Shown here: piece after piece, positions 8,936 through 59,940 of the stretch
How the letters are laid out: the number at the start of each line of letters is the position of its first letter
Position numbering within the stretch: position 1 is the first letter of the stretch
NCBI RefSeq assembly: GCF_000374005.1
Contig: NZ_KB893157.1
Location: forward strand, 127,950 to 191,949
Length of the DNA: 64,000 nt
Reading direction: 5' to 3'
Source: Kiloniella laminariae DSM 19542
Lineage (GTDB): Bacteria > Pseudomonadota > Alphaproteobacteria > Kiloniellales > Kiloniellaceae
Notes under the pieces: model-generated
Told to the model about the DNA's origin: nothing
The model's database searches: none
Seen by the model: only the letters and a program-made list of their open reading frames with translations
Made by a program: the position numbers and the translations under genes

Positions 8936-8939
8936 GTAT

Positions 8940-10612: not shown

Positions 10613-10636
10613 GGTCTGGCTATCTTTATCTTACTA

Positions 10637-43327: not shown

Positions 43328-44218
43328 TCAGGGAATTGACAACCAGTAATGATCAGGAAGGCTTCGGCTGGCTTCACTCAGAAAGTTATTTTCCAGTGAA
43401 AAAATAAGGCTGTTTTTATACTGGCTGAGGGGAAAGGCAGATGTCGTTGCCGGGTGGTTTTCCAGTAGTGCGAAAAGACTGCCGTCACTGAGCATCTCTT
43501 CCAGTCCCTGTTCGAGCCGCCGGGCAAGGGGGGTGTCCTGTTTGTTTACGAAGAAATACATAGGGAAACGATAGGCAAGAATGATCTTGTCATAGGCAAT
43601 CAAGGTCTCGGCACCATAGGCTTTTAACTCGCCATAACCTTCTGTGATCGCTCTTGGAAAATAATCGCATCGCCTGTTTTCAGTCATACGCCACATGAAT
43701 TCAAACCGGATGGTTCGATCGACGCTAAAGCCATTGTCTTCCAGAATGTCACTGTCAGGCCAATGCTGCCCCTGGCAGGCGATGAGTGATTTCAGTTCTT
43801 CAGGTCTGGTGATTTTATCAAACTCGGCTATACGGTCTTTGCGAATGATCAGCAGGCGATAGCCAAGAAGACCCATATTCAGAGGGATTCTGATCGCCCG
43901 GAGCTTTTGTTCCCTCTCAATATCGGTTCCGGCCCAATCGAGATCAATCTGCTTCTTCTGTTCCAGAAATTTCAAGGAACGTTGCTGGGTCAGATTTTCA
44001 GCTGTAATATTGAGCTTGGCGGGACCGTAGTCTTTTTCAGTTCTTTTCAGGGCAGCCCTGATCACCGTGACGAAATAGTCGTGGGCTATATCGGCTTTGC
44101 CCTGGGGATTTCGAATATTGATGGTGTCATCTGCCAAGGCAGGAGATGCCAAGCTGAAAAACAGACTAAACAGGCAGGCAATCCCGATAGACTGCTTGGT
44201 TGTTTCCGGCATTTCCAA
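43328..44218 (-). CDS. Periplasmic binding-protein-like protein of unknown role
   Basis: A 296-residue exported protein with a signal peptide (about 1-29, cleavage near ALA-DD). The remainder has the general shape of a type 2 periplasmic binding protein: LEQKKQIDLDWAGTDIEREQ, IPLNMGLLGYRLLIIRKD, RCDYFPRAITEGYGEL and FVNKQDTPLARRLEQGLEEMLSDGSLFALLENH, similar to solute-binding proteins that feed transporters or sensor kinases. I recognise no closer family. No transporter is adjacent; the gene sits between rlmH and gpmI, interrupting an otherwise conserved housekeeping block, with 72- and 188-base spacers on its sides, so it is likely an inserted gene with its own promoter. Confidence 0.75.
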   Translation of the reverse strand: MEMPETTKQSIGIACLFSLFFSLASPALADDTINIRNPQGKADIAHDYFVTVIRAALKRTEKDYGPAKLNITAENLTQQRSLKFLEQKKQIDLDWAGTDIEREQKLRAIRIPLNMGLLGYRLLIIRKDRIAEFDKITRPEELKSLIACQGQHWPDSDILEDNGFSVDRTIRFEFMWRMTENRRCDYFPRAITEGYGELKAYGAETLIAYDKIILAYRFPMYFFVNKQDTPLARRLEQGLEEMLSDGSLFALLENHPATTSAFPLSQYKNSLIFSLENNFLSEASRSLPDHYWLSIP

Positions 44219-44290
44219 TTTCCATTTTACTATCCGAAAATAGCATAGTGTTCAGGAAATAAGTAAAAAAACACCTTAACTTCGAAATAA

Positions 44291-44764
44291 TCATTCCCGA
44301 TGATAGGGATGCCCCGAGAGAATGCAGGAGGCACGATAGATCTGCTCGGCGAAGAGGCCGCGAACCAGCATATGTGGCCAGGTAAAGCGCCCCAGACAAA
44401 GCGTTTGGTGCGCGGCTGCCTTTACCTCATCGGAATGGCCGTCAGCTCCGCCGATCAGAAAGGCGATATCCTGTTCGCCGCTGTCGGCATAATCCCTGAG
44501 CAGACAAGAGAATTGCTGGCTGGAAAAATCCTTGCCTTTTTCGTCAAGGATAATGACCCGCCCATTGCGGGGAAGCGCGGCGAGGAGCAGTTCGCCTTCA
44601 CGCTGTGTCATCTGCGCGGGCGGCAGATTTTTCTTTTCCTCGACTTCGCGGAGTTCAAGACTCCAGTTCAGGCGATTGCCTTTCAGACGTTTGCAATAAA
44701 GCTCAAACAGGTCCTTTGCCGGACTGGCTTTTGCCTTTCCGACAGCAATCAATGTTATTCGCAT
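44291..44764 (-). CDS. rlmH: 23S rRNA pseudouridine-1915 N3-methyltransferase
   Basis: SPOUT-class methyltransferase acting on 70S ribosomes, 157 residues. Start MRITLIAVGKAK, the knot segments VIILDEKGKDFSSQQFS, DIAFLIGGADGHSDEVK, and the C-terminal EQIYRASCILSGHPYHRE are all diagnostic. It follows rsfS by 26 bases. Confidence 0.96.
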   Translation of the reverse strand: MRITLIAVGKAKASPAKDLFELYCKRLKGNRLNWSLELREVEEKKNLPPAQMTQREGELLLAALPRNGRVIILDEKGKDFSSQQFSCLLRDYADSGEQDIAFLIGGADGHSDEVKAAAHQTLCLGRFTWPHMLVRGLFAEQIYRASCILSGHPYHRE

Positions 44765-44790
44765 CGTTGATCCGCCGCTATTTCAACGGA

Positions 44791-45240
44791 TCAGGCGTCT
44801 TGGGTGGCGTAAGGCTGTACTGACTCAGGCAGTTCCAGACCCCACATTTTTTCCAGGTTATAAAACGCGCGGACTTCCGGACGGAACAGATGAACAACGA
44901 CATCACCGGCATCAACCAGAACCCAGTCCCCGCGATCCTTGCCTTCGGCAATGATACTTTTCATGCCGGTGCTCTTGAGACCGCGCAACAGGTGATCAGA
45001 CATGGCGGAAACCTGCCGGTTGGAGTTACCGGTGGCTATAACCATATAGTCTGCAATGCTGGATTTTCCGGCGAGTTCGATGACGACGATATCTTCTGCT
45101 TTGTCGTTCTCTAGCGAGTTTCGAACCAGATCGAGCAGGTCACGGTTATTGCCCGTGGAATCCTGCGTAATGGCCTTAGTGGCAGTAGTTTCTCGTGGTA
45201 TGGTCGGTCCTCCGTAAAGGGAACCTGCTGGCAAGGTCAC
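44791..45240 (-). CDS. rsfS: Ribosomal silencing factor RsfS (start uncertain)
   Basis: Binds uL14 and blocks joining of ribosomal subunits in starvation. The conserved domain starts at LLDLVRNSLENDKAEDIVVIEL and includes SIADYMVIATGNSNRQVSAMSD and GDWVLVDAGDVVVHLFRPEVRAFYNLEKMW. The listed GTG start gives 149 residues with a non-conserved 33-residue lead. Inside that lead, a strong GGAGG (minus strand, 45213-45209) lies 7 bases before an ATA codon at 45201, which could be the true, rare start and would give 136 residues. Confidence 0.93.
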   Translation of the reverse strand: MTLPAGSLYGGPTIPRETTATKAITQDSTGNNRDLLDLVRNSLENDKAEDIVVIELAGKSSIADYMVIATGNSNRQVSAMSDHLLRGLKSTGMKSIIAEGKDRGDWVLVDAGDVVVHLFRPEVRAFYNLEKMWGLELPESVQPYATQDA

Positions 45241-45377
45241 GACTTCTCACTGCAGGCTGTTGTCATGTGCTCTGTACTTTTCGCCATACAGAGCGGCTGG
45301 TCTTGCTCATAGAGTCTAACACATCATGGGTGTACAGCTCTATCTATATGTTAATACGTGCGGCTGCAACAAAGGGA

Positions 45378-46052
45378 TCAACAAGTTTTTCCGGAAGCCT
45401 TGGCCTTTTGTCGTATTTGAGTTGAGGAAAGACGGGATTGCCGCCCATGTATCAGTGTCCAGGCTGGCGCCGGTGTTTTGCTTAGCTGACGGGATTTACG
45501 TTCCGGGAGCTGTTTGTGGGCAAAGTATTGTGCTGCTTTTGCCGAAGCTGCAGGCAGGGAATAGCCGGGCCGGGCAAAGACGGCGACGCTTACCAATTGG
45601 AAAATATCCTTCCAGTCGCGCCAGCGTGAAATCTGCAACAGATTATCTGCCCCCATCAGCCAGACAAAACGGACGTTCGGGAAAATTCGGGTCAATTTTC
45701 GCAAGGTGTCTGCGGTATAGACAGAGCCAAGCTGGCTTTCGATGGTGGTGATCCTGATACGCGGATGCTGTTGCAGTGCAAGAGCGCTTTCGACCCTTGC
45801 CGCCAGCGGAGCCATTTCTGCCGAAGATTTCAAGGGGTTTTGTGGCGAAACCATCCACCAGACTTCATCCAGTCCCAAACGGGTCAAAGCCTGCCGTGTG
45901 ATTAAATCATGTGCGGCATGCGCAGGATTGAAAGATCCGCCCAACAATCCAACAGTACAACCTTTGTGCGGGAGGCGCCCCCCCAGAGCGCGGGCAAGGC
46001 TTTTGCGGCAGGTCAGCTTGTCGAATTGAAGGCTGGGTGGAAAGCGGAGCAT
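45378..46052 (-). CDS. nadD: Nicotinate-nucleotide adenylyltransferase
   Basis: Makes deamido-NAD from nicotinate mononucleotide and ATP. 224 residues, with an N-terminal extension of about 30 residues before the conserved core VGLLGGSFNPAHAAHDLI. The adenylyl-transfer motifs are GGSFNPAHAAH (HxxH type), WWMVSPQNPLK, FVWLMGADNL and the C-terminal SRLSSTQIR. It ends 137 bases before rsfS and follows proA by 12 bases. Confidence 0.94.
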   Translation of the reverse strand: MLRFPPSLQFDKLTCRKSLARALGGRLPHKGCTVGLLGGSFNPAHAAHDLITRQALTRLGLDEVWWMVSPQNPLKSSAEMAPLAARVESALALQQHPRIRITTIESQLGSVYTADTLRKLTRIFPNVRFVWLMGADNLLQISRWRDWKDIFQLVSVAVFARPGYSLPAASAKAAQYFAHKQLPERKSRQLSKTPAPAWTLIHGRQSRLSSTQIRQKAKASGKTC

Positions 46053-46064
46053 TATGACCTGGAC

Positions 46065-47324
46065 TTAGGGTCTGATCTGACCTGTGCCACGAACCAGATA
46101 TTTGTAGCTGGTCAGCTGGCTGGCGCCGACAGGCCCCCTGGCATGCAGTTTTCCGGTTGAGATGCCGATCTCTGCGCCCATCCCGAACTCTCCGCCATCC
46201 GCATACTGGGTTGATGCATTGTGAATGACAATACCGGCATCAACCTGCTTCTGGAAAGCTGTAACAGCTTCAAGGTCTTCGGCAATGATTGCCTCGGTAT
46301 GGCTGGAACCGTGTCGCGCAATATGGGCGATGGCAGCTGCCAGATCGGGAACCTTGCGGACTGACAAAATGGCATCGAGATATTCTGTATCCCAATCTGC
46401 AGCCGTGGCCGGGATTACCCGATTATCCAGCGCGCAGATGCTTTCATCACCCCTGATTTCACAACCCTTGGTCATGAGGGCTTCAAGGATGGGTTTGAGG
46501 TCGCTGTCAGTAAAACCCTGGTCGACCAAAAGTGTTTCTGTTGCGCCACAAACCCCGGTGCGCCGCATCTTGGCATTAAGGACAATTTCAAGGGCCATGG
46601 CCGGACTGGCCGAAGCGTGCAGATAGGTGTGGCACAGTCCATCAAGGTGGGCGAGGACAGGCACCCTGCTTTCATTTTGTATGCGCTCGATCAAGCCCCG
46701 TCCGCCCCGGGGGATAATCAGATCGACGGTACCGTTCATGGTCAGCAGGTGCCCGACAGCTGCGCGATCGGTAGTCGGAACGCACTGGATCGCAGCGACA
46801 GGCAAGCCAGCCGTTTCGAGACCCGACTGCAAGCATTGAAGGATGGCCTTGGAAGAATGGTAACTTTCCGAACCACCACGCAAGATTGCGGCATTGCCTG
46901 CCTTGAGACTAAGTGCGCCAGCATCGGCGGTTACGTTCGGGCGGCTCTCGTAGATGATACCGATAACTCCGAGAGGGACGGAAATGCGTTCGAACTTCAG
47001 GCCGTTTGGCTGTTGCCAGCTGGCAAGAGACTGGCCAACAGGATCAGGGAAAGCGGCAATCGCTTCAAGGCCAAATGCCATGGCGTCAACCCGCTCTGGT
47101 GTCAGAGCAAGTCTGTCGAGCAGGGCGGAGCTCAGGCCTTTTTTCTCTGCTGCCGCCATGTCTTTGGCATTGGCTTCAAGGATTGTTTTTGTTTGGCTAC
47201 GAAGGGCGATGGCGGCCGCAGACAAGGCCTGGTTTTTGGTTTCGGCTGTTGCCTGTGCCAGGATTGCGGCAGCATTTTTGGCTGCTTGTCCCAGTTGATC
47301 CATCTCTGTCTTCAATTCGCTCAT
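46065..47324 (-). CDS. proA: Gamma-glutamyl phosphate reductase
   Basis: Second step of proline synthesis; reduces glutamyl-5-phosphate to the semialdehyde with NADPH. The ATG at 47324 gives 419 residues (MSELKTEMDQLGQAAKNAA), preferred over a GTG 21 bases upstream. The catalytic cysteine is in RRTGVCGATETLLVD; VIYESRPNVTADAGALSLKAGNA is the cofactor region; GPVGASQLTSYKYLVRG is the usual C-terminus. It lies 132 bases downstream of proB on the same strand. Confidence 0.96.
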   Translation of the reverse strand: MSELKTEMDQLGQAAKNAAAILAQATAETKNQALSAAAIALRSQTKTILEANAKDMAAAEKKGLSSALLDRLALTPERVDAMAFGLEAIAAFPDPVGQSLASWQQPNGLKFERISVPLGVIGIIYESRPNVTADAGALSLKAGNAAILRGGSESYHSSKAILQCLQSGLETAGLPVAAIQCVPTTDRAAVGHLLTMNGTVDLIIPRGGRGLIERIQNESRVPVLAHLDGLCHTYLHASASPAMALEIVLNAKMRRTGVCGATETLLVDQGFTDSDLKPILEALMTKGCEIRGDESICALDNRVIPATAADWDTEYLDAILSVRKVPDLAAAIAHIARHGSSHTEAIIAEDLEAVTAFQKQVDAGIVIHNASTQYADGGEFGMGAEIGISTGKLHARGPVGASQLTSYKYLVRGTGQIRP

Positions 47325-47456
47325 CACTTCGATTTCCTGTATCACCCTGGCTCTGAAAACGGGCTCTGTTCTTTATTACCTTACCGCCTTGTAAATCTGT
47401 CCTAATCTTGCCACGGCGTCTAGCTCAACCCAGTTTGGCTAGATTAACCAGCTTTG

Positions 47457-48605
47457 CTAGATCAAAACGAGATCATCCCGGTGGATCAATTCCTCGCGCC
47501 CAAGATACCCGAGGCGTTGCTCGATTTCAGAGCTTTTAAGTCCAATGATCTTGCGGGCATCACCATTGGAATAGGCCGCGAGACCACGGGCAATTTCCCG
47601 GCCATCCAGCGACTTGATCACAACGGAATCTCCGCGTTGAAACTTGCCTTCCACGGCTGTGACACCAGCTGGCAAAAGGGATTTTCCGTTTTGAAGTGCC
47701 TTGAGTGCACCATTGTCAACAATGACAGTTCCGAGTGGCTGAAGGCTGCCGGCAATATAGCGCTTTCGAGCTGTCTTGGGTTCGATTGAGGCTTCAAACA
47801 CCGAAGCTCTTTTGCCTTCCATAACGTTGGCAAGGGGATTGAGTTGATGTCCATTGGCGATGATCATATTACAACCTGCGCCAACAGCAATTTTTGCCGC
47901 GGCGATCTTGGTGATCATACCGCCGGAGCTATAGCCGGGCAGGGCTTCTCCGGCCATGGCGTCTATCTCTGGCGTGATCTCCTTGATAACAGGCAGGAAC
48001 TGTGCCGAGGGATCGCGTTTGGGGTCCGCAGTATAGAGGCCGTCGATGTCTGACAGCAACACCAGAAGGTCCGCATCAATCATCGCCCCCACTCTTGCCG
48101 CGAGTCTGTCATTGTCACCAAAGCGGATCTCGCTGGTGGCGACTGTGTCGTTCTCGTTGATGACGGGTACAGCGCCTAGTTTCAGCAAGGTGGTCAGAGT
48201 ATTGCGGGCATTCAAATGTCTGCGGCGTTCTTCGGTGTCACCAAGGGTGAGCAAAATCTGGGATACGGTGATCTTGTGTCGGGCAAGGGCTTCCTGATAG
48301 GCGTGGGCGAGGATGATCTGGCCTGTCGCCGCGGAAGCTTGCTTTTCCTCTAGTCTCAGTTTTCCCTGCGGAAGGCCGAGATGGTTTCTGCCGACGGCGA
48401 TGGCTCCTGAGGAAACCAGGACGACTTCCGCACCGCGCTCGATAAGAGCGGCGACATCATCGGTCAGTGCATGAAGCCATTCAGCCCGCAGACGTCCGGT
48501 TTCATCGTCGACAAGCAGGGCCGAGCCGATTTTTACTACAATACGTTTGGCGCTTCTCAGGTGCTCGGCAGCAGACAGGCCGATATCCTTTGTCTCTGTA
48601 ACCAT
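47457..48605 (-). CDS. proB: Glutamate 5-kinase
   Basis: First enzyme of proline synthesis, 382 residues. The amino acid kinase domain (about 20-275) has [36 protein letters not shown] and [17 protein letters not shown] domain follows (about 295-375, [24 protein letters not shown]). Feedback control by proline is usual in this two-domain form. It is followed by proA with a 132-base spacer and lies 48 bases downstream of obgE. Confidence 0.96.
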
Positions 48606-48653
48606 CTTTTTTGCCGTATAAATATATTATCTGGACGCTGGTAAGGGGGTGTT

Positions 48654-49742
<1,089 letters not shown>

Positions 49743-49904
49743 CTATCCGGGGACAATCAGGTCCGGAAGGGTGTCGGCAGGATTGCAACGAGATGCAGAT
49801 CACTGCGCGACTGTTCGTTTTTCCCTCAGGCTTTTTTGTCGGCCTGAAGGACTCGCATAGTACTCAATCCGCTTGCTTGGTCAGAGAGGGGGCGGAATGA
49901 GAAA

Positions 49905-49931
49905 AGGGGGGAATGGTTTTCCATTCCCCCC
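49905..49931 (-). terminator. Intrinsic terminator after rplU-rpmA
   Basis: Inverted repeat of 11 bp, GGGGGGAATGG / CCATTCCCCCC, with a TTTT (AAAA on the minus strand) loop. Read on the minus strand it is followed by TTTTC. It lies 44 bases after the rpmA stop, so obgE needs a separate promoter or read-through. Confidence 0.85.
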
Positions 49932-49974
49932 TAAACCTTATACAGCCCAGACAAGAGTCCGGAAGGTGGGGCCG

Positions 49975-50232
49975 TTAGGCCGCCGGCTGTACTGAAATGT
50001 ATGTGCGACCGCCAGCTTTCTGACGGAAGACCACCTGGCCTTCTACAGTAGCAAAGATCGTGTGATCTTTACCAATGCCAACGTTATCACCGGGGTGGAA
50101 CTTGGTGCCGCGCTGACGTACCAGAATGTTTCCGGATACGACGTGCTCGCCGCCAAATTTCTTTACACCGAGGCGGCGACCTGCTGAGTCGCGACCGTTG
50201 CGGGATGAACCGCCTGCCTTCTTATGTGCCAT
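49975..50232 (-). CDS. rpmA: 50S ribosomal protein bL27
   Basis: 85-residue ribosomal protein near the peptidyl-transferase centre. Start [24 protein letters not shown] is diagnostic, with [25 protein letters not shown] following. It is 6 bases downstream of rplU, the standard pair. Confidence 0.98.
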
Positions 50233-50238
50233 GAGGTC

Positions 50239-50610
50239 TTACTCCTCTGAATCTTTCTTGGCAGAAGCTGCTTTTTTCTTAGCAGGCTTCTTGGCGCCAT
50301 CGCCGAGAATGTCTGTGATCTTGATGACTGTGAGATCCTGGCGATGACCGTTTTTACGGCGATGGTTCTTACGACGCTTCTTTTTGAAGATGATGACTTT
50401 GTCACCACGTGTCTGTTCAACCACATCAGCCTTGACCACGGCACCGTCCAGAAGTGGCGCGCCAATGGTTGCCTTCTCATCGTCACCGATCATGAGAACG
50501 GAATCGAAATCAATCGAAGCGCCTGCTTCGGCATTGATTTTTTCGACGACCAGAACGTCGTCCTTGCGGACTTTGTACTGTTTGCCGCCAGTTTTGATTA
50601 CTGCGAACAT
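50239..50610 (-). CDS. rplU: 50S ribosomal protein bL21
   Basis: 123 residues. [14 protein letters not shown] and [28 protein letters not shown] are diagnostic of bL21. A Lys/Ala-rich C-terminal tail (about 103-123), [14 protein letters not shown], extends beyond the roughly 103-residue core; such tails are common in alphaproteobacteria. First gene of the minus-strand block. Confidence 0.97.
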
Positions 50611-51163
50611 GTTTATCGGTCACTTAGCTGTTAATTAGGCATTGCAAACATGAATATTTATTCATGCACAGATGGCCGCTCGGAATCCGGGCAGCCAGTG
50701 AGGGTGGAATATAGCGGGGCTTCGTCGGGAGTCAACGGCTTTCTCGTCTTGGGGATGGAACATCGCCGAATAATGGGGGGATTGCTGTGTTATGGCTTTA
50801 TCTGGAGTCGAAATGCAGGTGGTTTCAAGTTAAATGTATAGTTATTTGGCTTAGATAAGTAAAATTTTAAATTATTAAATATAAAATTTTAAATTATTTA
50901 ACAACTTTAAATTGTTCTTCTTGTAATGGCGCTATTTTACATTGTTATTTATTTCAAATTTATTAAAAATTACATAAAATTTTACATTAATTGTTGACTG
51001 TTTGGTTTGTCCGGAGATAAAAAGCCGCCAGCTCAAAGTAACGGTTTCTGAGCACCTCGTCATTCCAGTGAAAATACTGTGACTTCTATCAGATCCTGAT
51101 GTGTCTCTTCTGATTCTGGCCTGATTCTGAAGAGATTTGTCTATGCCATTATGGAGATTTGTT
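50611..51163 (+). promoter_or_regulatory. AT-rich divergent region upstream of the AfsA-like gene
   Basis: About 550 bases between rplU (minus) and the AfsA-like gene (plus). No credible gene. From about 50830 to 50995 base composition falls sharply and contains a 16-bp direct repeat, AAAATTTTAAATTATT, at 50861-50876 and 50883-50898 (22 bases apart), a related TTTAAATT at 50906-50913 and another AAAATTTT at 50976-50983. A possible promoter follows: TTGACT at 50994-50999, 17 bases, then ATAAAA at 51017-51022. Confidence 0.5.
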
Positions 51164-51955
51164 GTGTGTGAACGTATTGTGGTTGTTGTCGGTGACAAGT
51201 TTGCAGATTTTGCTGTCGGCAAGGACGTTATTACTCTGTCTCAACTGAAGGGAATGCTGTGCCTTCCCAGCCGGCTGCTCGCAGTTCAGGGCCAGATTGT
51301 TATCGTTCCAGGGCAGGGGCTGGGGGAGAAGGATGTCGAGGCAGTGGAAAAACAGGCGTCTTTGTCCGAATGCCGGGCGATGTTTGACCTGACACTCTGG
51401 TATCGCTCGGGCAGACGTGCGTCACAAAAGTATTCCCACAAGCATCTGCCGCAAAACACGCTGATCTCGGAACCTGTTCAGTCCGGGGATGACTGTTATG
51501 AACTGTCTTTGCTGATTGATGAGAACTGCGAGCTGATGAGTGATCATCAAACCGGACAGCATGTGCAGGGGATGATTTTGTTTGAAGCAGCCCGACAGAC
51601 CTTTCTGGCCGTAACCGAGACCTTTTATCTGCCGCAGAATGAAACCGGCTATTACTTTGTGATCAACCAGATGTCGGCAAATTACAACCGTTTCGCCTTT
51701 CCAATAGAAGCGCGTATTACTTACCGGATTTGTACAAAAGATATCGCAAAGGCAAACCGGATGAGTTTTTCTGCGGACATTACTGTTGAGCAGTGTAATC
51801 AGGTTGCAGCCACGTTCCACACTGACTTCACGGTTTTTGAAAACAGCCGGATTACCAGCATGGAAGGCAAGCTTGCTTCTCAATCCCTTTCCGGCTTTAT
51901 TTCGGAAATTGCCAGAGAGCGGCAGCAAAAAGTCGAATACCTAACCGCCGCTTAA
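51164..51955 (+). CDS. AfsA-like hotdog domain protein (GTG start)
   Basis: A protein of about 263 residues belonging to the A-factor biosynthesis (AfsA) hotdog family. In Streptomyces, AfsA joins a beta-ketoacyl chain from ACP to dihydroxyacetone phosphate, the committed step to gamma-butyrolactone signals. Residues about 1-75 match nothing I know; from about 88 the AfsA domain runs: SHKHLPQNTLISEP, then the diagnostic DHQTGQHVQGMILFEAARQ (Asp127, His128, His133, Glu141, Arg144), then a second hotdog strand set to about 250. Only one clear AfsA repeat is visible, where Streptomyces AfsA has two. The GTG at 51164 has GGAG 7 bases upstream; the ATG at 51143 is the alternative. A HAD phosphatase gene follows after 50 bases. 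Confidence 0.75.
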   Translation: MCERIVVVVGDKFADFAVGKDVITLSQLKGMLCLPSRLLAVQGQIVIVPGQGLGEKDVEAVEKQASLSECRAMFDLTLWYRSGRRASQKYSHKHLPQNTLISEPVQSGDDCYELSLLIDENCELMSDHQTGQHVQGMILFEAARQTFLAVTETFYLPQNETGYYFVINQMSANYNRFAFPIEARITYRICTKDIAKANRMSFSADITVEQCNQVAATFHTDFTVFENSRITSMEGKLASQSLSGFISEIARERQQKVEYLTAA

Positions 51956-52005
51956 CAACCCCAGTTCCCGGAAACAGTACACTCAGAAACAGGAAGATGC
52001 GAACC

Positions 52006-52689
52006 ATGAACGATATGTCGGATAGAGGCGCAGCAAGCTATGCTTTTTTCGATGTGGATGACACATTGATCAACGTCAAAAGCATGTTCAGTTTTCAGGA
52101 CTACTGGTATTCTCTTGTGTCAACTCCGGAGGAACAGGAAGCCTTTGGCACCGAAATGGGGCGCCTGCGTGCTGAAAATGCCCCCTGGGAAATTCTGAAC
52201 CGTCGTTATTATTCCTATTTTGCCGGCCGTTCTGTCTCGCAGGTTGCGGACTGTGCGGAACAGTGGTTCTTGCATCTGGAGCGTACTGTTGAGGACCTCT
52301 TTCATACCGCCATTATAGAAAAACTCGGGCAACACCAGGCCAAAGGTGACGTTCCTGTCTTCGTTTCGGGCTCTTTCCCTGCCGCTCTGGCGCCCAGTGC
52401 CCGGCGTTTTGGGGTGGAGCATATTCTGGCGACAACAATGGAAGTCACAGAGGGGCGTTATACCGGTGAGATACTGCCTCCCCAGACAATCGGGGCAGGA
52501 AAGGCAGAGGCTGTAGCCGGATTCCTGGCGAAAACACAAGTGCCTGCTACGGCCTGTTATGCCTACGGGGATGATATTTCAGATCTGCCCATGCTCGAGG
52601 CTGTTGGTCATCCCTTTGTTGTCAGTGGAGGACGCGGCCTGGAAGAGCACGCGCGAAAGGTGGGCTGGCCGGTTTTGTCGCCTCGATAG
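52006..52689 (+). CDS. HAD-IB family phosphatase
   Basis: A 227-residue haloacid dehalogenase-superfamily hydrolase of the SerB-like IB group. Motif I FFDVDDTLINVKSMF (nucleophile Asp and acid/base Asp), motif II FVSGSFPAAL, motif III lysine in GAGKAEAVAGFL and motif IV YGDDISDLPMLEAVG are all present, so it should be active. ATG at 52006 has AGGAAG 9 bases upstream; an ATG at 51997 lies right on that site and is less likely. A cap domain occupies about 30-95. It is cotranscribed with the AfsA-like gene. In gamma-butyrolactone synthesis a phosphatase step removes the phosphate that comes from dihydroxyacetone phosphate, so this gene may do that; the link is inference. Confidence 0.88.
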   Translation: MNDMSDRGAASYAFFDVDDTLINVKSMFSFQDYWYSLVSTPEEQEAFGTEMGRLRAENAPWEILNRRYYSYFAGRSVSQVADCAEQWFLHLERTVEDLFHTAIIEKLGQHQAKGDVPVFVSGSFPAALAPSARRFGVEHILATTMEVTEGRYTGEILPPQTIGAGKAEAVAGFLAKTQVPATACYAYGDDISDLPMLEAVGHPFVVSGGRGLEEHARKVGWPVLSPR

Positions 52690-52709
52690 AGAAGACATCT
52701 CGCGCAGAA

Positions 52710-54848
52710 TTATTGTTGCACCACGACTGAAGCAGGCAGAAGGATGAAGACGGTTGTGCCTTCTCCTTCCCGACTTTCCAGTGTGATTTTCCCGTTATGC
52801 TGTTCGACAAGTGCTTTGACAATGGAAAGGCCAAGTCCAACACCCTCGTGTTCGCAAATCATGCTGCTTTCAACTCTGGTAAAGGGTTTGAAAATACCTT
52901 CTTGTTGATTCTCCGGGATACCTATTCCGTTGTCTGAAATGGCCAGGATGAGATCCCCTGTTCCCTCCCGGGTGGCTGAAATTGTAATTGCCCCGGTCTT
53001 TTTGGTGAACTTGATCGCATTGGAGACAAGATTGATGATGATCTGCATAAAGCGCCGTTCATCTGCCTTGATGTGATGAAGGGCGACATCCGGGGTGACA
53101 TTGAGGATGACTTCCGCCTTGTCGGCACGGTCCTGCATCATCGAGATACACTTCTCGACCACGGCACCAAGATGAACGGTTTCAATCTCAAGCGCCATGT
53201 GGCCGGACTCGATTTTTGAAACATCGAGGATGTCGCTGATTATTCCCAGAAGGTACAGCCCCGACGCATTGATGTCACTGGCGTAGGATTTGTAGTGCGG
53301 GTTGTCGAGAGGGCCCATGATTTCGTGTTGCATCATCTGGGCAAAGCCGATGACAGCATTCAGGGGCGTTCGCAGCTCGTGGCTCATGTTGTTGAGAAAA
53401 TCTGTTTTACTTCTATTGGCCAGCTCGGCTTCTTCTTTGGCGGTTGAAAGCTCTTGTGTTCTCTCTTGTACACGGCGTTCGAGCGTTTCCTTGGCTTCCT
53501 GGATCAGGATTTCCGCCTTGCGGCGATCCGAGATATCGCGAACAGAGCCACGATAGCCCGTAAAGGTTTTATTCTGATCAAAGATGGGGATGCCACTGAC
53601 GGATACAGCGATAATGTCGCCATTGTTTCTGGTGCAATGATATTCGAGATTTCGGAAAGGACTTTGTGTTTGCCGGCGCAGCTCAATGTCTTTTTTCCAG
53701 TCCCCTTCTTTATTGTCCTGATTTTCGGTGGTGATCAGGTTGGCCAAGGACTGACCGACGAGGTTCTCTGCGGCATCAATACCAATCAGATGGAAGTGAC
53801 CGGAGATAAAACTAATCGATAAGTTCTCATCGGTTTCCCAGAACAGGTCTGTGACTGTTTCGGCAATATCCCGAAAACGTTTTTCGCTGAATTTCAAGGC
53901 TTGTTCAGCGGCTACTCGTTCTGAGATCTCCTGCTGGAGATTGTGCGTGCGTTCTTCGACTCTGGCTTCCAGATCAATATTGGCTGTATTGAGATTTTTA
54001 TAGGCAATGCGAAGGTTCTGACACATGGCGTTAAAAGCAGATACAACTCGATCCAGTTCATCGGGGTTGCTGGAGGCGCGACGCTTGAGCCGAAACACCG
54101 GAGATTGTCCAATGAGACTGTAGCTGCTGGCAAAGTTTGCCAGAGAAACCAGATGCCGGGTGATCAGGTAGTGGACAACATAGAGGATAAAAAACGAGAC
54201 AAGGAAAGTCTTGATTGCCTGGGTTCCCAGTATCACAAGCGTCTTTTCCCATAAGCGGTGGTAGACACCTTCAAGCGTGGCCTGGATATAGAGAGTACCA
54301 ATCGTTCGTGCTGTATCACGGTCATTGTAAACAATAGGGAGAGACCAGGAAATGGTGTTGTGCTCGAGGCGTTCCCCAACGGTGACCAGGAGAGGTTTTT
54401 TGACTTCGGAAACTGTTTCTTGCACTTCAACAGCCTGAATGTCGGGGAGACGAACAATCCCGCTGAGCTGAATTTTCAGCTGTTCGGTGTCCACATTCCA
54501 CAGGCTTCCCGCAATACTGTTAAGATAACTGCGTTCGATTTCCAGCAAACGGTCCGATATCGAGTTCACATCCCGGCGGTAGTCGAGATAAAGCTGGGCT
54601 GCTGTCAGGATCAGGGTGATCAGTGAGCTGAACAGCAGAATAGCAAAGAGTAATCGCCGCCCTATTCCGCGGCTGAATGGCAAGGGGGAATCGCCTTGCG
54701 AAGGCAGCGCGAAATCGTCCGGGCGGTGGGGGCTTGTGATAACAGTTTCTCTCGGGACCTTTGTTTGAGATTCGTAAGCTGCGCTTGCGTTCTTGGTCGA
54801 AACAAAGTCGTCACCAGACATTCGAACGATGTCTTTCTTCTTCGACAA
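52710..54848 (-). CDS. PAS-containing sensor histidine kinase (TTG start)
   Basis: A 712-residue membrane sensor kinase. Order: cytoplasmic N-terminus (1-62), TM1 (about 65-88), periplasmic domain (about 89-208, with LNSIAGSLWNVDTEQLKIQLSGIVRLPD, resembling CHASE8-like sensor domains), TM2 (about 209-230), a HAMP-like linker, coiled coil, PAS domain (about 320-445), a second coiled coil, HisKA with phospho-acceptor His490 in MSHELRTPLNAVIG, and HATPase_c with N box NLVSNAIKF, G1 ISDNGIGIP and G2 GVGLGLSIVK. No receiver domain, and no response regulator gene in the window. The TTG start has AAGGAAG just upstream; ATG at 54821 lacks a site. It follows the binding protein gene by 52 bases and converges on the HAD gene. 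Confidence 0.9.
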   Translation of the reverse strand: MSKKKDIVRMSGDDFVSTKNASAAYESQTKVPRETVITSPHRPDDFALPSQGDSPLPFSRGIGRRLLFAILLFSSLITLILTAAQLYLDYRRDVNSISDRLLEIERSYLNSIAGSLWNVDTEQLKIQLSGIVRLPDIQAVEVQETVSEVKKPLLVTVGERLEHNTISWSLPIVYNDRDTARTIGTLYIQATLEGVYHRLWEKTLVILGTQAIKTFLVSFFILYVVHYLITRHLVSLANFASSYSLIGQSPVFRLKRRASSNPDELDRVVSAFNAMCQNLRIAYKNLNTANIDLEARVEERTHNLQQEISERVAAEQALKFSEKRFRDIAETVTDLFWETDENLSISFISGHFHLIGIDAAENLVGQSLANLITTENQDNKEGDWKKDIELRRQTQSPFRNLEYHCTRNNGDIIAVSVSGIPIFDQNKTFTGYRGSVRDISDRRKAEILIQEAKETLERRVQERTQELSTAKEEAELANRSKTDFLNNMSHELRTPLNAVIGFAQMMQHEIMGPLDNPHYKSYASDINASGLYLLGIISDILDVSKIESGHMALEIETVHLGAVVEKCISMMQDRADKAEVILNVTPDVALHHIKADERRFMQIIINLVSNAIKFTKKTGAITISATREGTGDLILAISDNGIGIPENQQEGIFKPFTRVESSMICEHEGVGLGLSIVKALVEQHNGKITLESREGEGTTVFILLPASVVVQQ

Positions 54849-54900
54849 TTCAGCTTCCTTAAATTCCCTGAATATAACCGCTTGTTGTTTTTTTTATTGG

Positions 54901-55650
54901 TTAAAAATATGAATTATCGTTCAGCAGACGAGTCAGTGTTCCATCTTCGCCCATTGTTTCTATTACCTTGTTAAGTTCCGGCATGACATCAAGATTGGGT
55001 GACTTTCTGGAGCACTGCAAGACAATAGGAATTTTTTTCATAACAAGATAATTATCAAGCAGATCCGGGTAGTTTTCCTGTTTTGCCATATAAAAAATAG
55101 TCGGAATAGCACCGGCAATGGCATCAAGACGCTGATGTGCAATCTTTAGCAGGCCTATCTGATAATCTTTGTCGTATTCTTTTTGTAAACTTGTATCGCT
55201 ATCAAACTCGGGCGTGATTTTGAGGCCCCGAAGCAGGGAAATAGTTAAGGGCTTGAGGTCGTCATAGCTTGAAAGGACTACTCCCTTGCGGGCAATGACG
55301 CCAAAAGGCATCTGATAAACTTCCGCACCTTTTTCTACAATAGAAACCCTGCTTTCGCTCCAGAGAATAATCGTACAGTCCTGATCGCCAGATTCGAGGT
55401 CCTGATTGATCCGGGCAAAAGGCCTGAGTGAAATCTGTATTTGATGTCCGCTGCGTCTTTCCAGCTCTCGTACAACTTCGGGGAAAGCGCCAATGGGTCG
55501 GTCAGAGCCCGGTTCAAAAGAGGCCCAGGGAGCCGTTTCCAGAGTGATAAACTTAAGCTCTCGGGCGTCAGCCTTGGAAAGATATCCCGCGATGAACCCT
55601 GTTGCTAACAATGCAAAGACAGTGCTGAAAAATCTCCCTGATTTTTGCAT
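54901..55650 (-). CDS. Periplasmic binding protein, extracellular solute-binding family 3-like
   Basis: A 249-residue exported protein. Start at 55650 (MQKSGRFFSTVFALL) has GGGG nearby; an in-frame ATG at 55695 adds 15 residues. The signal or anchor segment spans about 8-28. The mature part follows the amino-acid-binding type 2 pattern: ELKFITLETAPWASFEP, GAFPEVVRELERRSGHQIQISLRPFARINQDLESGDQDCTIILWSESR, PFGVIARKGVVL. No transporter genes are adjacent. The sensor kinase gene starts 52 bases downstream on the same strand, so it may deliver a ligand to that kinase; that is inference. Confidence 0.85.
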   Translation of the reverse strand: MQKSGRFFSTVFALLATGFIAGYLSKADARELKFITLETAPWASFEPGSDRPIGAFPEVVRELERRSGHQIQISLRPFARINQDLESGDQDCTIILWSESRVSIVEKGAEVYQMPFGVIARKGVVLSSYDDLKPLTISLLRGLKITPEFDSDTSLQKEYDKDYQIGLLKIAHQRLDAIAGAIPTIFYMAKQENYPDLLDNYLVMKKIPIVLQCSRKSPNLDVMPELNKVIETMGEDGTLTRLLNDNSYF

Positions 55651-55809
55651 TGAAACCCCACTGAATAACTGTTCAAGAATGACAAAGTTTTTCAAAATTA
55701 AGTATTAATTTAGTACGATGGGTTTTTATGTACAACAGAATATCCTGAAGGTTACCAGTTTTACTTTGGGGAAGTATTTAACATAATAAACAGGGGAATA
55801 ATATTTATC

Positions 55810-56403
55810 ATGTCTATGATTGTAAGCTTATTTCGTCTTATGGTTGTAACGATGTTCCTGCCAGTATTCTCTGCCCACGCCGGGGGGGTAAGGGGGATGG
55901 AGCATGTCGGGGTTACCGTGCCAAACCTTGAAGAAGCCGTTAGTTTTTTTAGCGAAAAACTGGGATGCCAAGAGGCCTTTCAGCTTGGCCCATTTGCAGA
56001 TCCCGAGGGGAGCTGGATGAGCCAGAATGTGGGGACGCACGACAAGGCAACATTAAAAATTTCAGCTCTGAAGTGTGGTAATGCAACCAATGTTGAGCTG
56101 TTTGAGTTTACTTCACCGGAGCAGGCGGCCCACTGGCCAAAACGGGAAGATTACGGTGCAACATCTCTGGGATTCTACGTAGATGATATCAAAAGCCTCG
56201 TGGAGGAACTCAAATCAAATAATGTCGAGGTTCTGGGCGATATAAAACTGGTTGATCAGGGGCCGATTGCGGGCAGAAGCTGGGTGTATGTCAAGGCGCC
56301 TTGGGGGATGCTGATTTTCCTAATGAGCGAACCTGAAGGGATTGCCTATGAGAAACAGCCTGATGCACTTCATCTGTTCAGTCCGCGTAATCTGCCGGAA
56401 TAA
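55810..56403 (+). CDS. Exported VOC-family protein
   Basis: A 197-residue protein with an N-terminal signal peptide (about 1-24, cleavage near AHA-GG) and one vicinal-oxygen-chelate (glyoxalase/bleomycin-resistance) domain: GMEHVGVTVPNLEEAVSFFSEKLGCQE, NVELFEF, TSLGFYVDDIKSLVEELKSNNVEVLG and GRSWVYVKAPWGMLIFLM. The candidate metal ligands His32 and Glu (in VELFEF) are kept, but the third and fourth positions (usual His and Glu) appear replaced by Phe and Met, so catalysis is doubtful. VOC proteins are usually cytoplasmic. It is divergent from the binding-protein gene and followed by a large hairpin. Confidence 0.82.
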   Translation: MSMIVSLFRLMVVTMFLPVFSAHAGGVRGMEHVGVTVPNLEEAVSFFSEKLGCQEAFQLGPFADPEGSWMSQNVGTHDKATLKISALKCGNATNVELFEFTSPEQAAHWPKREDYGATSLGFYVDDIKSLVEELKSNNVEVLGDIKLVDQGPIAGRSWVYVKAPWGMLIFLMSEPEGIAYEKQPDALHLFSPRNLPE

Positions 56404-56808
56404 TAACACTTATCGTCAGGATGTCTTGAACAGAAGGATAATAGCACCAGGCAGAACTGCACGGGGAGGGGGGCAAATGGATTGTCCGTGACATCGTGAC
56501 AGAGTCTTTATTGCAGGGTGGTATATTTTAAACACGCAAAAACGCTGATCAGGATTTGGTCAGTGTTTTTGTGTGAAGGAACCAAGGGCAGCAGGAAAAC
56601 GACGTGGTTCCCCTTTGCCGATAAAAATCAGGTGCGACCTCGGCATTTTCCGATAGCTATTCTGATTTACTGCCAGACAACAGAAGGACCTCCGGTCAAA
56701 GTTAGGGCAGAATGTCTGCAAACTGGTATAGCGATACAGTCATATAATCCAGTCTGTAAGGTGATGATGAGCTCGTTGATATTTGAGGCGCTGGGCAAAG
56801 GAAATCTC
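56404..56808 (+). promoter_or_regulatory. Leader region upstream of the ectoine catabolic genes
   Basis: A 405-base spacer between the VOC gene and doeA. It stays open in the doeA frame back to 56518, but nothing before 56809 resembles the family. The main element is the long hairpin at 56533-56575. No clear promoter hexamers were fixed. Confidence 0.4.
56533..56575 (+). terminator. Long hairpin, terminator or leader element
   Basis: Stem of about 18 bp with G-U pairs: CACGCAAAAACGCTGATC pairs with GGTCAGTGTTTTTGTGTG, with a 7-base loop AGGATTT. It lies 130 bases after the VOC stop and 233 before doeA. The T run is inside the stem rather than after it, so it may be a terminator for the VOC transcript or a leader structure of the ectoine operon. 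Confidence 0.55.
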
Positions 56809-58002
56809 ATGGCGTTGAATCCCGCAGGAATAGAGTTGAGTTTCGATCTTTCAGAATATGGTGCTCGTCTGGCAAAGACTCGACTGGCGATGCAATCTGC
56901 AGGGGTTGACTGTCTGGTTGTGACAGATCCCTCCAATATGGCCTGGCTGACAGGCTATGATGGCTGGTCATTTTATGTACATCAGTGTGTGCTTGTAACG
57001 GGTGAGGGGCAGCCGATCTGGTTTGGTCGTTCCATGGATGCAAACGGTGCCAAGCGAACCTGTTATCTGTCCCACGATAATATTATCGGCTATGCGGACC
57101 ATTATGTTCAGTCCACCGAACGTCACCCCATGGACCTGCTGGCGTCAATCCTGGAAGACAAGGGATTTGGCAAAGCCAGTATTGGCGTTGAAATGGACAA
57201 CTATTATTTCTCTGCTGCGGCCTATGCGTCGCTGGTGCGTCATCTGCCGAATGTTATATTTAAAGACACGACCAATCTGGTGAACTGGCAGCGGGCGGTG
57301 AAATCTGCGCAGGAACTGAACTACATGCGCAAGGCAGGTAAAATTGTCGAGGTCATGCACCAGCGTATCCGTGAAACCGTCAAGCCAGGTTTGCGCAAAA
57401 ACGAACTGGTAGCTGAAATTTATGACGCAGGCCTGCGAGGTGTGGAAGGCGCGGGTGGAGACTATCCGGCCATCGTTCCTTTGCTGCCTTCCGGTGCGGA
57501 TGCCTCGGCTTCGCATCTGACATGGGATGATCGCCCGATGCGTTCCGGCGAAGGGACTTTTTTCGAGATCGCGGGCTGTTATAAACGCTATCATTGTCCT
57601 CTGTCGCGGACGGTTTTCCTTGGCAAGCCTGAGCAGAAATTCCTCGATGCGGAAAAGGCCGTGCTCGAAGGGATGGAAGCTGGTCTTGAACAGGCCCGGG
57701 TTGGCAATTTCTGTGAGGACATTGCCAATAGCTTCTTCGCGGTTCTGAAAAAGCATGGCATCATAAAAGACAGTCGCACTGGCTATTCCATCGGATTGTC
57801 CTACCCGCCGGACTGGGGCGAGCACACCATGAGCCTGCGCAAAGGGGATCGCACAGTACTGGAGCCGGGGATGACCTTTCATTTTATGACTGGTTTGTGG
57901 CTTGAAGACTGGGGACTGGAGATCACCGAAAGTATTGTGATTGGAGACAGAGGGCCGGAATGCCTGTCTGCTGTCCCCCGTGAACTGTTTGTTATTTCCT
58001 AA
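56809..58002 (+). CDS. doeA: Ectoine hydrolase (M24 family)
   Basis: A 397-residue pita-bread-fold enzyme that opens the ectoine ring to N-acetyl-diaminobutyrate, the first step of ectoine breakdown. The ATG at 56809 is preceded by AAAGGA with 6-base spacing, and the family starts there; upstream in-frame codons are spurious. Characteristic DoeA/EutD segments: MAWLTGYDGWSFYVHQCVLV, WFGRSMDANGAKRTCYL, the M24 core at AGGDYPAIVPLLPSGADASASHLTWDD and HMGEHTMSLRKGD-like GEHTMSLRKGDRTVLEPGMTFHFMTGLW. The metal ligands of true aminopeptidases are largely replaced, as known for ectoine hydrolases. First of five genes in doe order. Confidence 0.92.
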   Translation: MALNPAGIELSFDLSEYGARLAKTRLAMQSAGVDCLVVTDPSNMAWLTGYDGWSFYVHQCVLVTGEGQPIWFGRSMDANGAKRTCYLSHDNIIGYADHYVQSTERHPMDLLASILEDKGFGKASIGVEMDNYYFSAAAYASLVRHLPNVIFKDTTNLVNWQRAVKSAQELNYMRKAGKIVEVMHQRIRETVKPGLRKNELVAEIYDAGLRGVEGAGGDYPAIVPLLPSGADASASHLTWDDRPMRSGEGTFFEIAGCYKRYHCPLSRTVFLGKPEQKFLDAEKAVLEGMEAGLEQARVGNFCEDIANSFFAVLKKHGIIKDSRTGYSIGLSYPPDWGEHTMSLRKGDRTVLEPGMTFHFMTGLWLEDWGLEITESIVIGDRGPECLSAVPRELFVIS

Positions 58003-58029
58003 AAAAGACAGAGAAAAAGACAGATCTTT

Positions 58030-59193
58030 ATGTCGGATACACTAAGCCTCACCAAAGACATTCTCGCCAAACTGGTTGCCTTTGAAAGCCTGTCCGGTCT
58101 ATCGAACCTGGCGATGATTGATTATATCAGGGAGTATCTGGAGCAGCAGGGAATTTCCTCGTCTCTCAGCTATGACGAAACCGGATTACGCGCCAATCTC
58201 TATGCCACTATTGGCCCGGAAGTTGACGGGGGGGTGGTACTCAATGGTCATACAGACGTGGTGCCGACCAGAGGTCAGGAATGGAGCGCTGATCCTTTCA
58301 CCTTGCTGGAAAAGCAGGGGCGGCTCTATGGGCGAGGGGCGGTCGATATGAAAGGCTTCCTCGCCTGTAGTCTGGCGATGGTGCCCGAGTTCAAAAAACA
58401 GGCACTCAAACGGCCGATCCATGTATCGTTTTGTTATGACGAGGAAATCGGCGGCTTTGGGGCTCCAGTGCTTGCTGAAGACATCATATCCAAATCGATC
58501 ACCCCCGCCATTGCCATCGTCGGAGAGCCGACAGGGATGCAGTTGGTCACCGGTCACAAGGCCGGTTTGGAACTCCAGACTGAATTTGACGGTTTCGAGG
58601 TCCATGCGTCGGACCCGGGCAAGGGGGTGAATGCGATTGAATATGCCACCCTCTATATTGATAAAATTCTGGATATCAAAGCCGAACTGGCGGCAAAGCC
58701 GGTATCCGGTTCACCTTTCGAGCCTCCCTATTCGACCTGTAATATCGGCCAGATCCAGGGCGGGATTGCAACGAACATTACAGCGGGAAGCTGTGTGATC
58801 AACTGGGAGATCCGCCCAATCCCCGGGGATGACGGCTATGCCATTCTCGAGCGGATCAAGAACCATGCAGAAACCGTACTGGTTCCAAAAATGCGCAAAG
58901 TTTATCCCCAAGCTGAAATCCGGACCAAACTTCTTGCGGATGTGCCGGCGCTTTTGGCCAGCGAGGATTCTCCCGCCGTCAATCTGATCCGGAAAATTAC
59001 CGGCAGCAATGCCAGCGAAGTTGTTTCTTTCGGGACAGATGCGGGGCATTTCGAACGGGTCGGGATCTCGACGGTGGTTTTTGGCCCCGGCTCGATTGAA
59101 CAGGCGCACAAGCCGGATGAATATATCGAGATTTCTGAGCTCAAGCGCTGTCTGGCATTCCTGGGCGATCTCGCCAGGCATCAGGCAAGTTGA
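58030..59193 (+). CDS. ArgE-like M20 deacetylase in the ectoine cluster
   Basis: A 387-residue M20-family hydrolase, closest to acetylornithine deacetylase (ArgE). The metal site is GHTDVVP (His), RGAVDMKG (Asp), CYDEEIGG (catalytic Glu-Glu), VGEPTG, and a C-terminal FGTDAGHFER then GPGSIEQAHKPDEYIE with the last His. The dimerisation domain spans about 180-290. In Halomonas and Ruegeria the second step of ectoine breakdown, deacetylation of N-alpha-acetyl-diaminobutyrate, is done by DoeB/EutE, an aspartoacylase-type enzyme of another fold. Position and chemistry suggest that this enzyme takes that role here (inference). Gap to doeA is 27 bases. Confidence 0.88.
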   Translation: MSDTLSLTKDILAKLVAFESLSGLSNLAMIDYIREYLEQQGISSSLSYDETGLRANLYATIGPEVDGGVVLNGHTDVVPTRGQEWSADPFTLLEKQGRLYGRGAVDMKGFLACSLAMVPEFKKQALKRPIHVSFCYDEEIGGFGAPVLAEDIISKSITPAIAIVGEPTGMQLVTGHKAGLELQTEFDGFEVHASDPGKGVNAIEYATLYIDKILDIKAELAAKPVSGSPFEPPYSTCNIGQIQGGIATNITAGSCVINWEIRPIPGDDGYAILERIKNHAETVLVPKMRKVYPQAEIRTKLLADVPALLASEDSPAVNLIRKITGSNASEVVSFGTDAGHFERVGISTVVFGPGSIEQAHKPDEYIEISELKRCLAFLGDLARHQAS

Positions 59194-59281
59194 TGATGTC
59201 TGTTGCTGTTTGGGGGCTTGTCATTACCGGGAGAACCCCGTTAAGTAAGGTGGCTTTTCCTAAAAACATTCTGGTAAGACG

Positions 59282-59782
59282 ATGCAGATAGCAGGACTTC
59301 GACTGGATGATCGTGATCTCGCGATCCTCAATATCCTCCAGACCGAGGGCCGGATCACCAAAGCCGCGCTGGCCGAGCGGGTCAATCTTTCGCCAACACC
59401 TTGTTGGGAAAGACTGAAACGACTGGAGCAGGCTGGTTTAATCGAAAGCTATGAGGCGCGCCTGTCTCTCAAGGCTTTTTCTCCGGTAACGATTGTTTTT
59501 ATGGAAGCGGAGCTCGACAGCCACAAGGCCGAGGATTTTGACCGTTTTGAAGCGGCGATGGCCGATTATCCCGAGATTGTGGAATGCTGGGCCGTCGGGG
59601 GCGGCATTGATTATGTCCTGCGTATTCTGACCCGGGATATCGACAGCTATCAGCGCCTGGTAGACCGGTTGCTCGAAGCCAAGATCGGGTTGCGCCGGTA
59701 CTTTTCCTATGTGGTGACAAAGCCGGTCAAGCATCAGACGGCACTGCCGCTGGATCTGCTTACTTCTGATCTGACGGAATAG
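59282..59782 (+). CDS. doeX: Lrp/AsnC-family regulator of the ectoine cluster (DoeX-like)
   Basis: A 166-residue Lrp/AsnC-type regulator. The N-terminal winged helix reads LDDRDLAILNILQTEGRITKAALAERVNLSPTPCWERLKRLEQAGLIE and the C-terminal RAM domain starts IVFMEAELDSHKAEDFDRFEAAM and includes CWAVGGGIDYVLRILTRDIDSYQRLVDRLL. In Halomonas the equivalent DoeX binds near the doe promoter and senses an ectoine-derived intermediate. Its place between the deacetylase and the dehydrogenase is the same. Likely operators are in its flanks, see the nested palindrome downstream. Confidence 0.9.
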   Translation: MQIAGLRLDDRDLAILNILQTEGRITKAALAERVNLSPTPCWERLKRLEQAGLIESYEARLSLKAFSPVTIVFMEAELDSHKAEDFDRFEAAMADYPEIVECWAVGGGIDYVLRILTRDIDSYQRLVDRLLEAKIGLRRYFSYVVTKPVKHQTALPLDLLTSDLTE

Positions 59783-59804
59783 GGCTCTACTCCTTTCCCG
59801 GGTA

Positions 59805-59849
59805 CTATTCTTCCCTTAAAGAGGAAGCCTCCTCTTCTTTATAGAATAG
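59805..59849. promoter_or_regulatory. Nested palindrome between doeX and doeC
   Basis: Two stacked inverted repeats share a centre: outer CTATTCT (59805-59811) / AGAATAG (59843-59849), inner AAGAGGA (59819-59825) / TCCTCTT (59830-59836), with a 4-base loop. It starts 22 bases after the doeX stop. It could be a regulator site, a weak terminator or a processing signal. Confidence 0.5.
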
Positions 59850-59940
59850 CAGTGTTCTTCTCTTAATTCCCACCTGTCTTTAGATGCACCTTCGCCGGGA
59901 ACTCCCCCATGATGGCACTCATCAAACAGGAGCAAGAGCC

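Follow-up and report, generated by a model that had tools for sequence, protein, structure and literature searches.

What does a gene for an AfsA-type protein do in an alphaproteobacterium when a gene for a HAD-family phosphatase follows it, and how would the product of such a pair be perceived? The question is raised by a locus in a 64,000-nucleotide stretch of the Kiloniella laminariae DSM 19542 genome, the whole of which we call the window. An earlier note had pointed out the pair and proposed that it makes a lipid-derived small molecule. Its observation was confirmed and its interpretation is partly supported; it had overlooked the histidine kinase and the periplasmic binding protein encoded next to the pair. 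We propose, with a probability of slightly under 60%, that synthase and sensor genes together form a cassette for a self-contained cell-to-cell signalling circuit. The genes concerned are:

51164–51955, + strand: AfsA-type protein, 263 aa, phosphorylated butenolide synthase-like, single domain (PF03756)
51997–52689, + strand: HAD-IB family phosphatase, 230 aa (TIGR01490, PF12710, HAD motifs)
52710–54848, − strand: membrane histidine kinase, 712 aa, CHASE5 (periplasmic sensor)-PAS-HisKA-HATPase (Pfam)
54901–55695, − strand: periplasmic solute-binding protein of family 3, 264 aa, candidate ligand receptor (PF00497)
55810–56403, + strand: glyoxalase/bleomycin-resistance-fold protein (Pfam Glyoxalase_4; hydrophobic N-terminus by eye)

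The AfsA-type protein scored 58.2 bits against PF03756 (Pfam gathering cut-off 24), in agreement with the hotdog signature that had been read from its sequence. Structure prediction, which the earlier note had recommended, gave a model (pLDDT 82.5) with the hotdog fold of the AfsA family: one hotdog (residues ~82–228) behind a small N-terminal alpha/beta stretch that extends to about residue 80. In a fold search with this model, whose rows covered residues 84–228, the nearest solved folds were FabZ dehydratases and thioesterases, with FabZ the most alike. Conserved residues identified by alignment were D127, H128, H133, E141, R144 and Q145. In the set of 39 AfsA proteins, the E-A-x-R-Q motif keeps its E and Q in every member, its R in 38 and its A in 36, and both the D and the H of the D-H motif were kept in 39/39. 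RagB lipoproteins also appeared (3 rows, E 0.025) when the AfsA profile was compared with solved-structure sequences, and were taken as chance matches.

As previously noted, only one AfsA repeat is present, seen as a single PF03756 stretch (Pfam) and as the one hotdog of the model. Synthases of the ScbA/BarX type typically have two repeats per chain, which the window protein does not, and it scored 21.8 bits against the ScbA/BarX equivalog model NF041195, where 200 are needed. The N-terminal alpha/beta stretch, previously described as unfamiliar, also occurs elsewhere: the GQG motif that it contains was found in 37–38 of the 39 single-domain AfsA proteins, Streptomyces plasmid members among them. 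The window protein is 96–97% identical to its counterpart on contig NZ_JAPWGY010000006.1 (Alphaproteobacteria, Kiloniellaceae). The HAD gene follows the AfsA gene on the common strand after a gap of 41 bases, and its product is the intact HAD-IB phosphatase that it was said to be, with a score of 132.2 bits against TIGR01490 (cut-off 98.3) and motifs DVDDT, SGS and GDDISD. Inspection by eye of the ORFs beside the pair revealed neither a reductase gene nor one for acyl supply. An AfsA-type product of the pair is a reasonable expectation.

How might the product be sensed? No gene for an ArpA-type TetR-family receptor was recognised by eye among the ORFs of at least 100 aa overlapping 44000–60000. 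The earlier note had remarked on this absence, a pointer that now proves misleading because a conserved binding protein and a histidine kinase encoded next door make a candidate receptor. The kinase gene lies tail to tail with the HAD gene, the stop codons being 20 bases apart. Pfam identified CHASE5 (5.4e-27), PAS_9, HisKA and HATPase_c domains in the kinase, and its H-box reads SHELRTPL. The binding-protein gene is directly upstream of the kinase gene on the strand that they share, and the ORFs next to it, inspected by eye, include no recognisable permease or ATPase gene.

The window's binding protein passed the PF00497 cut-off only barely (26.6 bits, cut-off 26.4); other cassette binding proteins scored 34.8 (Azospirillum) and 27.7 (G208). 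Since its structure model was weak (pLDDT 57.5), its fold matches, most of which are binding proteins for glutamine, arginine or opines or ligand-binding proteins of glutamate receptors, serve only to back the Pfam assignment. Among 22 binding proteins, P56-W57, R95, D106-C107-T108, R156, R189 and Q227-C228-S229, two cysteines among them, were invariant in 22/22. In the profile alignment to AncQR, an ancestral arginine/glutamine-binding protein, the acidic residue by which amino-acid ligands are held at their alpha-amino group is opposite a gap, and G195 next to this gap was kept in 22/22. The gap may point to a ligand that is not an amino acid, a hint tempered by the weak structure model. Small polar ligands are the rule for family-3 binding proteins, and a long-chain acylbutenolide would therefore be an unusual one.

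The glyoxalase-fold gene adjoins the binding-protein gene and is found in all three Kiloniella cassettes (L018, L019 and L020). Its product was absent from all other examined loci in a phmmer search against the ORFs of 39 loci. Its membership of the cassette is uncertain.

Do the four genes belong together? A narrow peptide-pattern scan of genome contigs gave seven loci. AfsA, HAD, kinase and binding-protein genes also occurred together in Azospirillum sp. TSO22-1 (L006) and in Gilvimarinus (L007, L008), in each case with an additional gene for a receiver-PAS-GGDEF-EAL protein, and a further alphaproteobacterium had a partial set. Five loci, or four in the case of the regulator, supplied the profiles of the parts that were then run on 39 AfsA loci. 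A CHASE5 kinase lay beside AfsA at 23 of them, and counting L068, where a contig break divides the locus, there are 24; the parts found at the 23 kinase-bearing loci were all within 4.0–7.0 kb. HAD was present in 23 of the 24 kinase-type loci (the exception is L130) and the binding protein in 22. In genome G490 the binding protein is on a different contig from the AfsA locus, and in L130 its place is taken by another family-3 protein, which scores below the Pfam cut-off. The GGDEF-EAL protein was present in 20/24 (≥800 bits) and missing in the three Kiloniella loci and in L055, which has no such regulator within its 19.9 kb. Of the 24 loci, 17 count as fair tests: five had served to build the profiles, and L019 and L020 closely duplicate the window locus. 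The remaining 15 of the 39 AfsA loci gave no kinase or binding-protein match (E 1e-5); in one, L010, the contig ends 10 bases behind AfsA.

The arrangement of the genes varied. In Kiloniella, AfsA-HAD converges on kinase and binding protein; in Azospirillum, the kinase is back to back with binding protein-AfsA-HAD; and in the Cellvibrionaceae type, binding protein-kinase diverges from AfsA-HAD. Because these orders differ, the linkage has outlived rearrangement. In L130, AfsA converges on regulator and kinase.

Several loci departed from the common content. L130 (in G1279, 5544–11222) holds a variant cassette of AfsA, CHASE5 kinase and GGDEF-EAL regulator that lacks a HAD match, and its different family-3-like binding protein adjoins AfsA. 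In L065 and L067 the kinase gene is preceded by two binding-protein genes in tandem, which perhaps reflects split ligand specificity, and G490 also has two copies. On G490 contig C3 (~144200–144858) the match to the kinase sensor region is fragmented and interrupted by stop codons; this is a broken gene or an assembly error beside an otherwise present cassette. At L006 (4578–5015, Azospirillum), a single-domain gene, receiver-like by eye, overlaps the 3' end of the kinase gene and is additional to the GGDEF-EAL regulator.

The cassette is rare. The AfsA profile matched only 1/397 other genomes in a sample of the phylum, 2/384 other genomes of the window's class, and 2/368 other genomes of the class that holds the Cellvibrionaceae-type family. 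In the window's order it matched 3/61, all in the window's genus and including the window's own genome. The Cellvibrionaceae-type family was richer, with matches in 28/144 genomes: 19 of the cassette type, six with other single-domain AfsA genes (L069–L074) and three with an AfsA domain inside open frames of >1,000 residues. The proposal of the earlier note withstood both of the refutations that it had named: the PF03756 match is significant and comes with a hotdog fold, and the AfsA-HAD pair recurs in genomes both related and unrelated, but within the genus the AfsA gene is present in only 3/9.

Co-occurrence with the synthase was exact for the binding protein. In the Cellvibrionaceae-type family its orthologue was found in 19/19 cassette genomes and 0/125 others, with 114.6 bits for the weakest orthologue copy among the matches listed and 65.2 for the next homologue; weaker homologues were present in 15/125 cassette-free genomes. 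In the window's family the corresponding counts were 3/3 and 0/20 (orthologues at ≥501.8 bits, next match 76.5), with weaker homologues in 5/20 cassette-free genomes. Among 72,556 plasmid records (E 1e-10), none had the binding protein and 17 had AfsA relatives, 16 of them from Streptomyces; none of 50,697 phage records had a relative (E 1e-3), and none was found in viral contigs. The pairwise distances of AfsA and binding protein were correlated at 0.82 over 22 loci, and those of other pairs of parts at 0.61–0.80, values not corrected for the species tree. In the AfsA tree, cassette members were grouped at a support of only 54/20.

The kinase sensor domain was dropped as a marker of presence, related kinases being found in many genomes of the Cellvibrionaceae-type family. 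At least 84 of its 144 genomes had some match, and among the matches listed two cassette-free genomes scored 164–167 bits, above the cassette kinase of G491 (158.6).

Within Kiloniella, the cassette lies on one side of rplU. The obgE-proB side of this gene was conserved in 5/5 other Kiloniella regions, and the cassette side (5.2–6.2 kb in each) gave no AfsA, HAD or binding-protein match in any of the five. The cassette is therefore accessory in the genus. One of the Kiloniella rplU regions (L173) has a 40% match to the kinase over 272 residues near its end. Genomes G010 and G013 gave no rplU match, and in G012 cassette and rplU are on different contigs. Between rplU and the AfsA gene, 50640–51160 has 35% G+C, compared to 47–59% on either side, and this AT-rich stretch likely marks the border of the cassette.

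The GGDEF-EAL regulator is the usual fifth part outside Kiloniella. Receiver, GGDEF and EAL domains were found in the three regulators scanned (L006, L007 and L130). The receiver Asp was present in 19/19 regulators in the alignment, the 20th (L060) being cut by a contig end. The GGDEF site reads GGDEF in 18/20, GGDEY in L017 and AGDEF in L130, and an EAL-type motif was present in 20/20. The Kiloniella cassette encodes no such regulator, and the window's genome has no full-length counterpart elsewhere; its best match (336.5 bits) covers residues 240–672 of 690, which is the GGDEF-EAL part alone. The best match in the window's family reached 383 bits.

How could the parts work as a circuit? The analysis itself shows which genes are present, linked and co-occurring, what domains and fold their products have and which motif residues are conserved; for the reaction we reason from the AfsA family, and for the sensing from linkage and co-occurrence. 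The AfsA protein, probably as a hotdog homodimer, would condense a beta-ketoacyl thioester (of ACP or CoA), supplied by general fatty-acid metabolism, with dihydroxyacetone phosphate (DHAP) to give a phosphorylated 2-acyl-3-(hydroxymethyl)butenolide. In vitro, 3-ketothioesters and DHAP are condensed to phosphorylated butenolides by an AfsA-like PKS domain from Burkholderia gladioli (PMC7756379). The HAD-IB protein would strip the phosphate to leave a neutral butenolide, and because its gene is next door, the dephosphorylated 2-acyl-3-(hydroxymethyl)butenolide would be the simplest product. This compound, or a form reduced by a housekeeping reductase, would exit the cell and be captured in the periplasm by the family-3 binding protein, which would dock on the kinase at the CHASE5 domain. 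At loci with a receiver-PAS-GGDEF-EAL protein (20/24, not Kiloniella), the phosphate signal would alter c-di-GMP. We infer the order of these steps as well as the ligand of the binding protein, the pairing of kinase and regulator, and the output. For the butenolide, binding protein and kinase together are the most plausible candidate receptor. The more specific description as Gram-negative butenolide quorum sensing, in which an AfsA- and HAD-made signal would be perceived by an extracytoplasmic binding protein with a CHASE5 kinase and mostly passed to c-di-GMP, is in our view evenly poised.

Could the sensor respond to something other than the product of the pair? AfsA and HAD might make a butenolide-type metabolite, with binding protein and kinase sensing a nutrient, a host or algal compound, or stress, and switching production on. 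The solved-structure matches of the binding protein, mostly to glutamine-, arginine-, opine- and glutamate-receptor ligand-binding proteins, would suit such a role, and adjacent genes for a binding protein and a kinase are not always functionally linked, as one study states (PMC11113362). We nevertheless regard it as unlikely. Weaker homologues aside, the binding-protein orthologue never occurred without the synthase in 144 + 23 genomes, which argues against a general nutrient sensor, as this should occur alone somewhere. The recurring parts also include no DNA-binding regulator, the usual regulator being the GGDEF-EAL protein.

The chemistry is open to a similar challenge, in that the hotdog protein could catalyse another acyl-thioester reaction (as a thioesterase, a dehydratase, or by acyl transfer to another phosphorylated acceptor) and the HAD protein could act on that product. 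The missed ScbA/BarX equivalog (21.8 against 200 bits), the one repeat instead of two, and the FabZ dehydratases and thioesterases as nearest solved folds are all consistent with this, but the protein passes the PF03756 cut-off, and most residues of the E-A-x-R-Q and D-H motifs are retained across the 39 proteins, including two Streptomyces ones encoded beside ketoacyl synthase and ACP genes. With DHAP activity described for a proteobacterial AfsA-like domain (PMC7756379), we consider a different reaction improbable. Far less credible still is that the four genes are neighbours by chance or through inheritance in a single lineage, with no common function. In the window the two gene pairs do not share a strand, and the 5/5 other Kiloniella rplU regions that lack AfsA, HAD and binding protein would be compatible with a passenger island. 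Against this, the genes recur in differing orders in Azospirillum, in the further alphaproteobacterium (as a partial set) and in Cellvibrionaceae-type genomes, and binding-protein orthologue and synthase co-occur without exception in two families, by which chance association is already largely refuted.

The signalling circuit that we favour resembles several known systems. With Streptomyces AfsA, ScbA and MmfL, which are synthases of gamma-butyrolactone and furan signals, it has in common the AfsA hotdog with its E/R motif, an expected DHAP-derived butenolide and a dephosphorylation step. It differs in having one AfsA domain with an alpha/beta N-terminal stretch instead of two repeats, and in that no reductase was recognised beside the window synthase. 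The candidate receptor is a periplasmic binding protein with a kinase, in contrast to the intracellular TetR-like repressors of the ArpA type. For ArpA, MmfL and MmfP the comparison is one of descriptions, not of sequences. The RpfF/RpfC/RpfG system for DSF likewise combines a signal synthase, a histidine kinase and a c-di-GMP response regulator (the last not in Kiloniella). However, RpfF is a crotonase and the cassette synthase an AfsA hotdog, the cassette kinase has CHASE5 and would work with a separate binding protein unlike RpfC, and the regulator is a GGDEF-EAL protein where the output of RpfG is HD-GYP. In Vibrio, LuxP and LuxQ, a periplasmic binding protein and a membrane histidine kinase, sense self-made AI-2, and here too a binding-protein gene lies beside that of a membrane histidine kinase. 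Compared to LuxP, the cassette binding protein is of the SBP_bac_3 family; the kinase scored 194.6 bits against the LuxQ equivalog, where 1200 are needed, and the synthase is unrelated to LuxS. The circuit would operate in the manner of Rpf/DSF or LuxPQ, yet it lacks the features that define them and belongs to neither.

The two-gene pair to which the earlier note had drawn attention is not in itself the novelty, because AfsA-HAD pairs of Proteobacteria are already in print (PMC12114271). The operon described there, from Chromobacterium subtsugae, likewise has an AfsA-related hotdog gene followed by a HAD-IB hydrolase gene and is induced by quorum sensing; its co-expressed neighbours are a MarR regulator and efflux genes, and the available part of the report names no binding protein, kinase or c-di-GMP protein. 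The AfsA-like chain-release domain of the gladiostatin PKS is also proteobacterial, but is PKS-fused and makes an antibiotic (PMC7756379), whereas the window AfsA protein stands alone in a proposed signalling cassette. The available parts of three further papers mention a Pseudomonas strain with a cluster termed 'A-factor-like' that includes a hydrolase besides an AfsA-like protein (PMC8719888), RpfR and an AI-2-binding cyclase as quorum-signal receptors in a review of c-di-GMP sensing (PMC8846402), and butyrolactones for Streptomyces only in a 2026 review of quorum sensing (PMC13220807). In a search of mostly non-subscription literature, no report of a linked receptor beside AfsA-HAD was found among the matches listed, and no paper on CHASE5 together with a histidine kinase was found. 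AfsA-HAD, the probable source of a small hormone-like lactone, is linked to a binding protein and kinase in several marine and soil bacteria that are not related to one another, and the whole looks like a complete bacterial signalling circuit that has so far gone undescribed.

What would follow if this is true? A-factor-like chemistry would serve extracellular signalling outside Actinomycetota with a different type of receptor, and in most hosts would be tied to c-di-GMP control. For the AfsA hormone family this would be the first receptor at the cell surface; for CHASE5 it would supply a ligand route and with it a testable function. Naming the probable receptor also means that the ligand can be fished directly with the soluble binding protein.

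Single-domain AfsA genes were also found in other settings. In a second kind of cluster (L009, L069 and L132), a gene for a protein of 270–280 aa with a TTQGPxYPPSEV motif adjoins AfsA, and HAD-IB is close by. The megaplasmid of Ruegeria pomeroyi DSS-3 (L011) has LysR, a hypothetical protein, AfsA, a second hypothetical protein (without the TTQGPxYPPSEV motif), a tautomerase and HAD-IB. The single-domain AfsA proteins of Streptomyces plasmids (L012–L014) are 24–27% identical to the window protein and occur in three settings: with an FG-GAP protein and a PEP/pyruvate-binding enzyme; with KAS III, ACP, a dioxygenase and HAD-IB; and with KAS III, ACP and an SDR.
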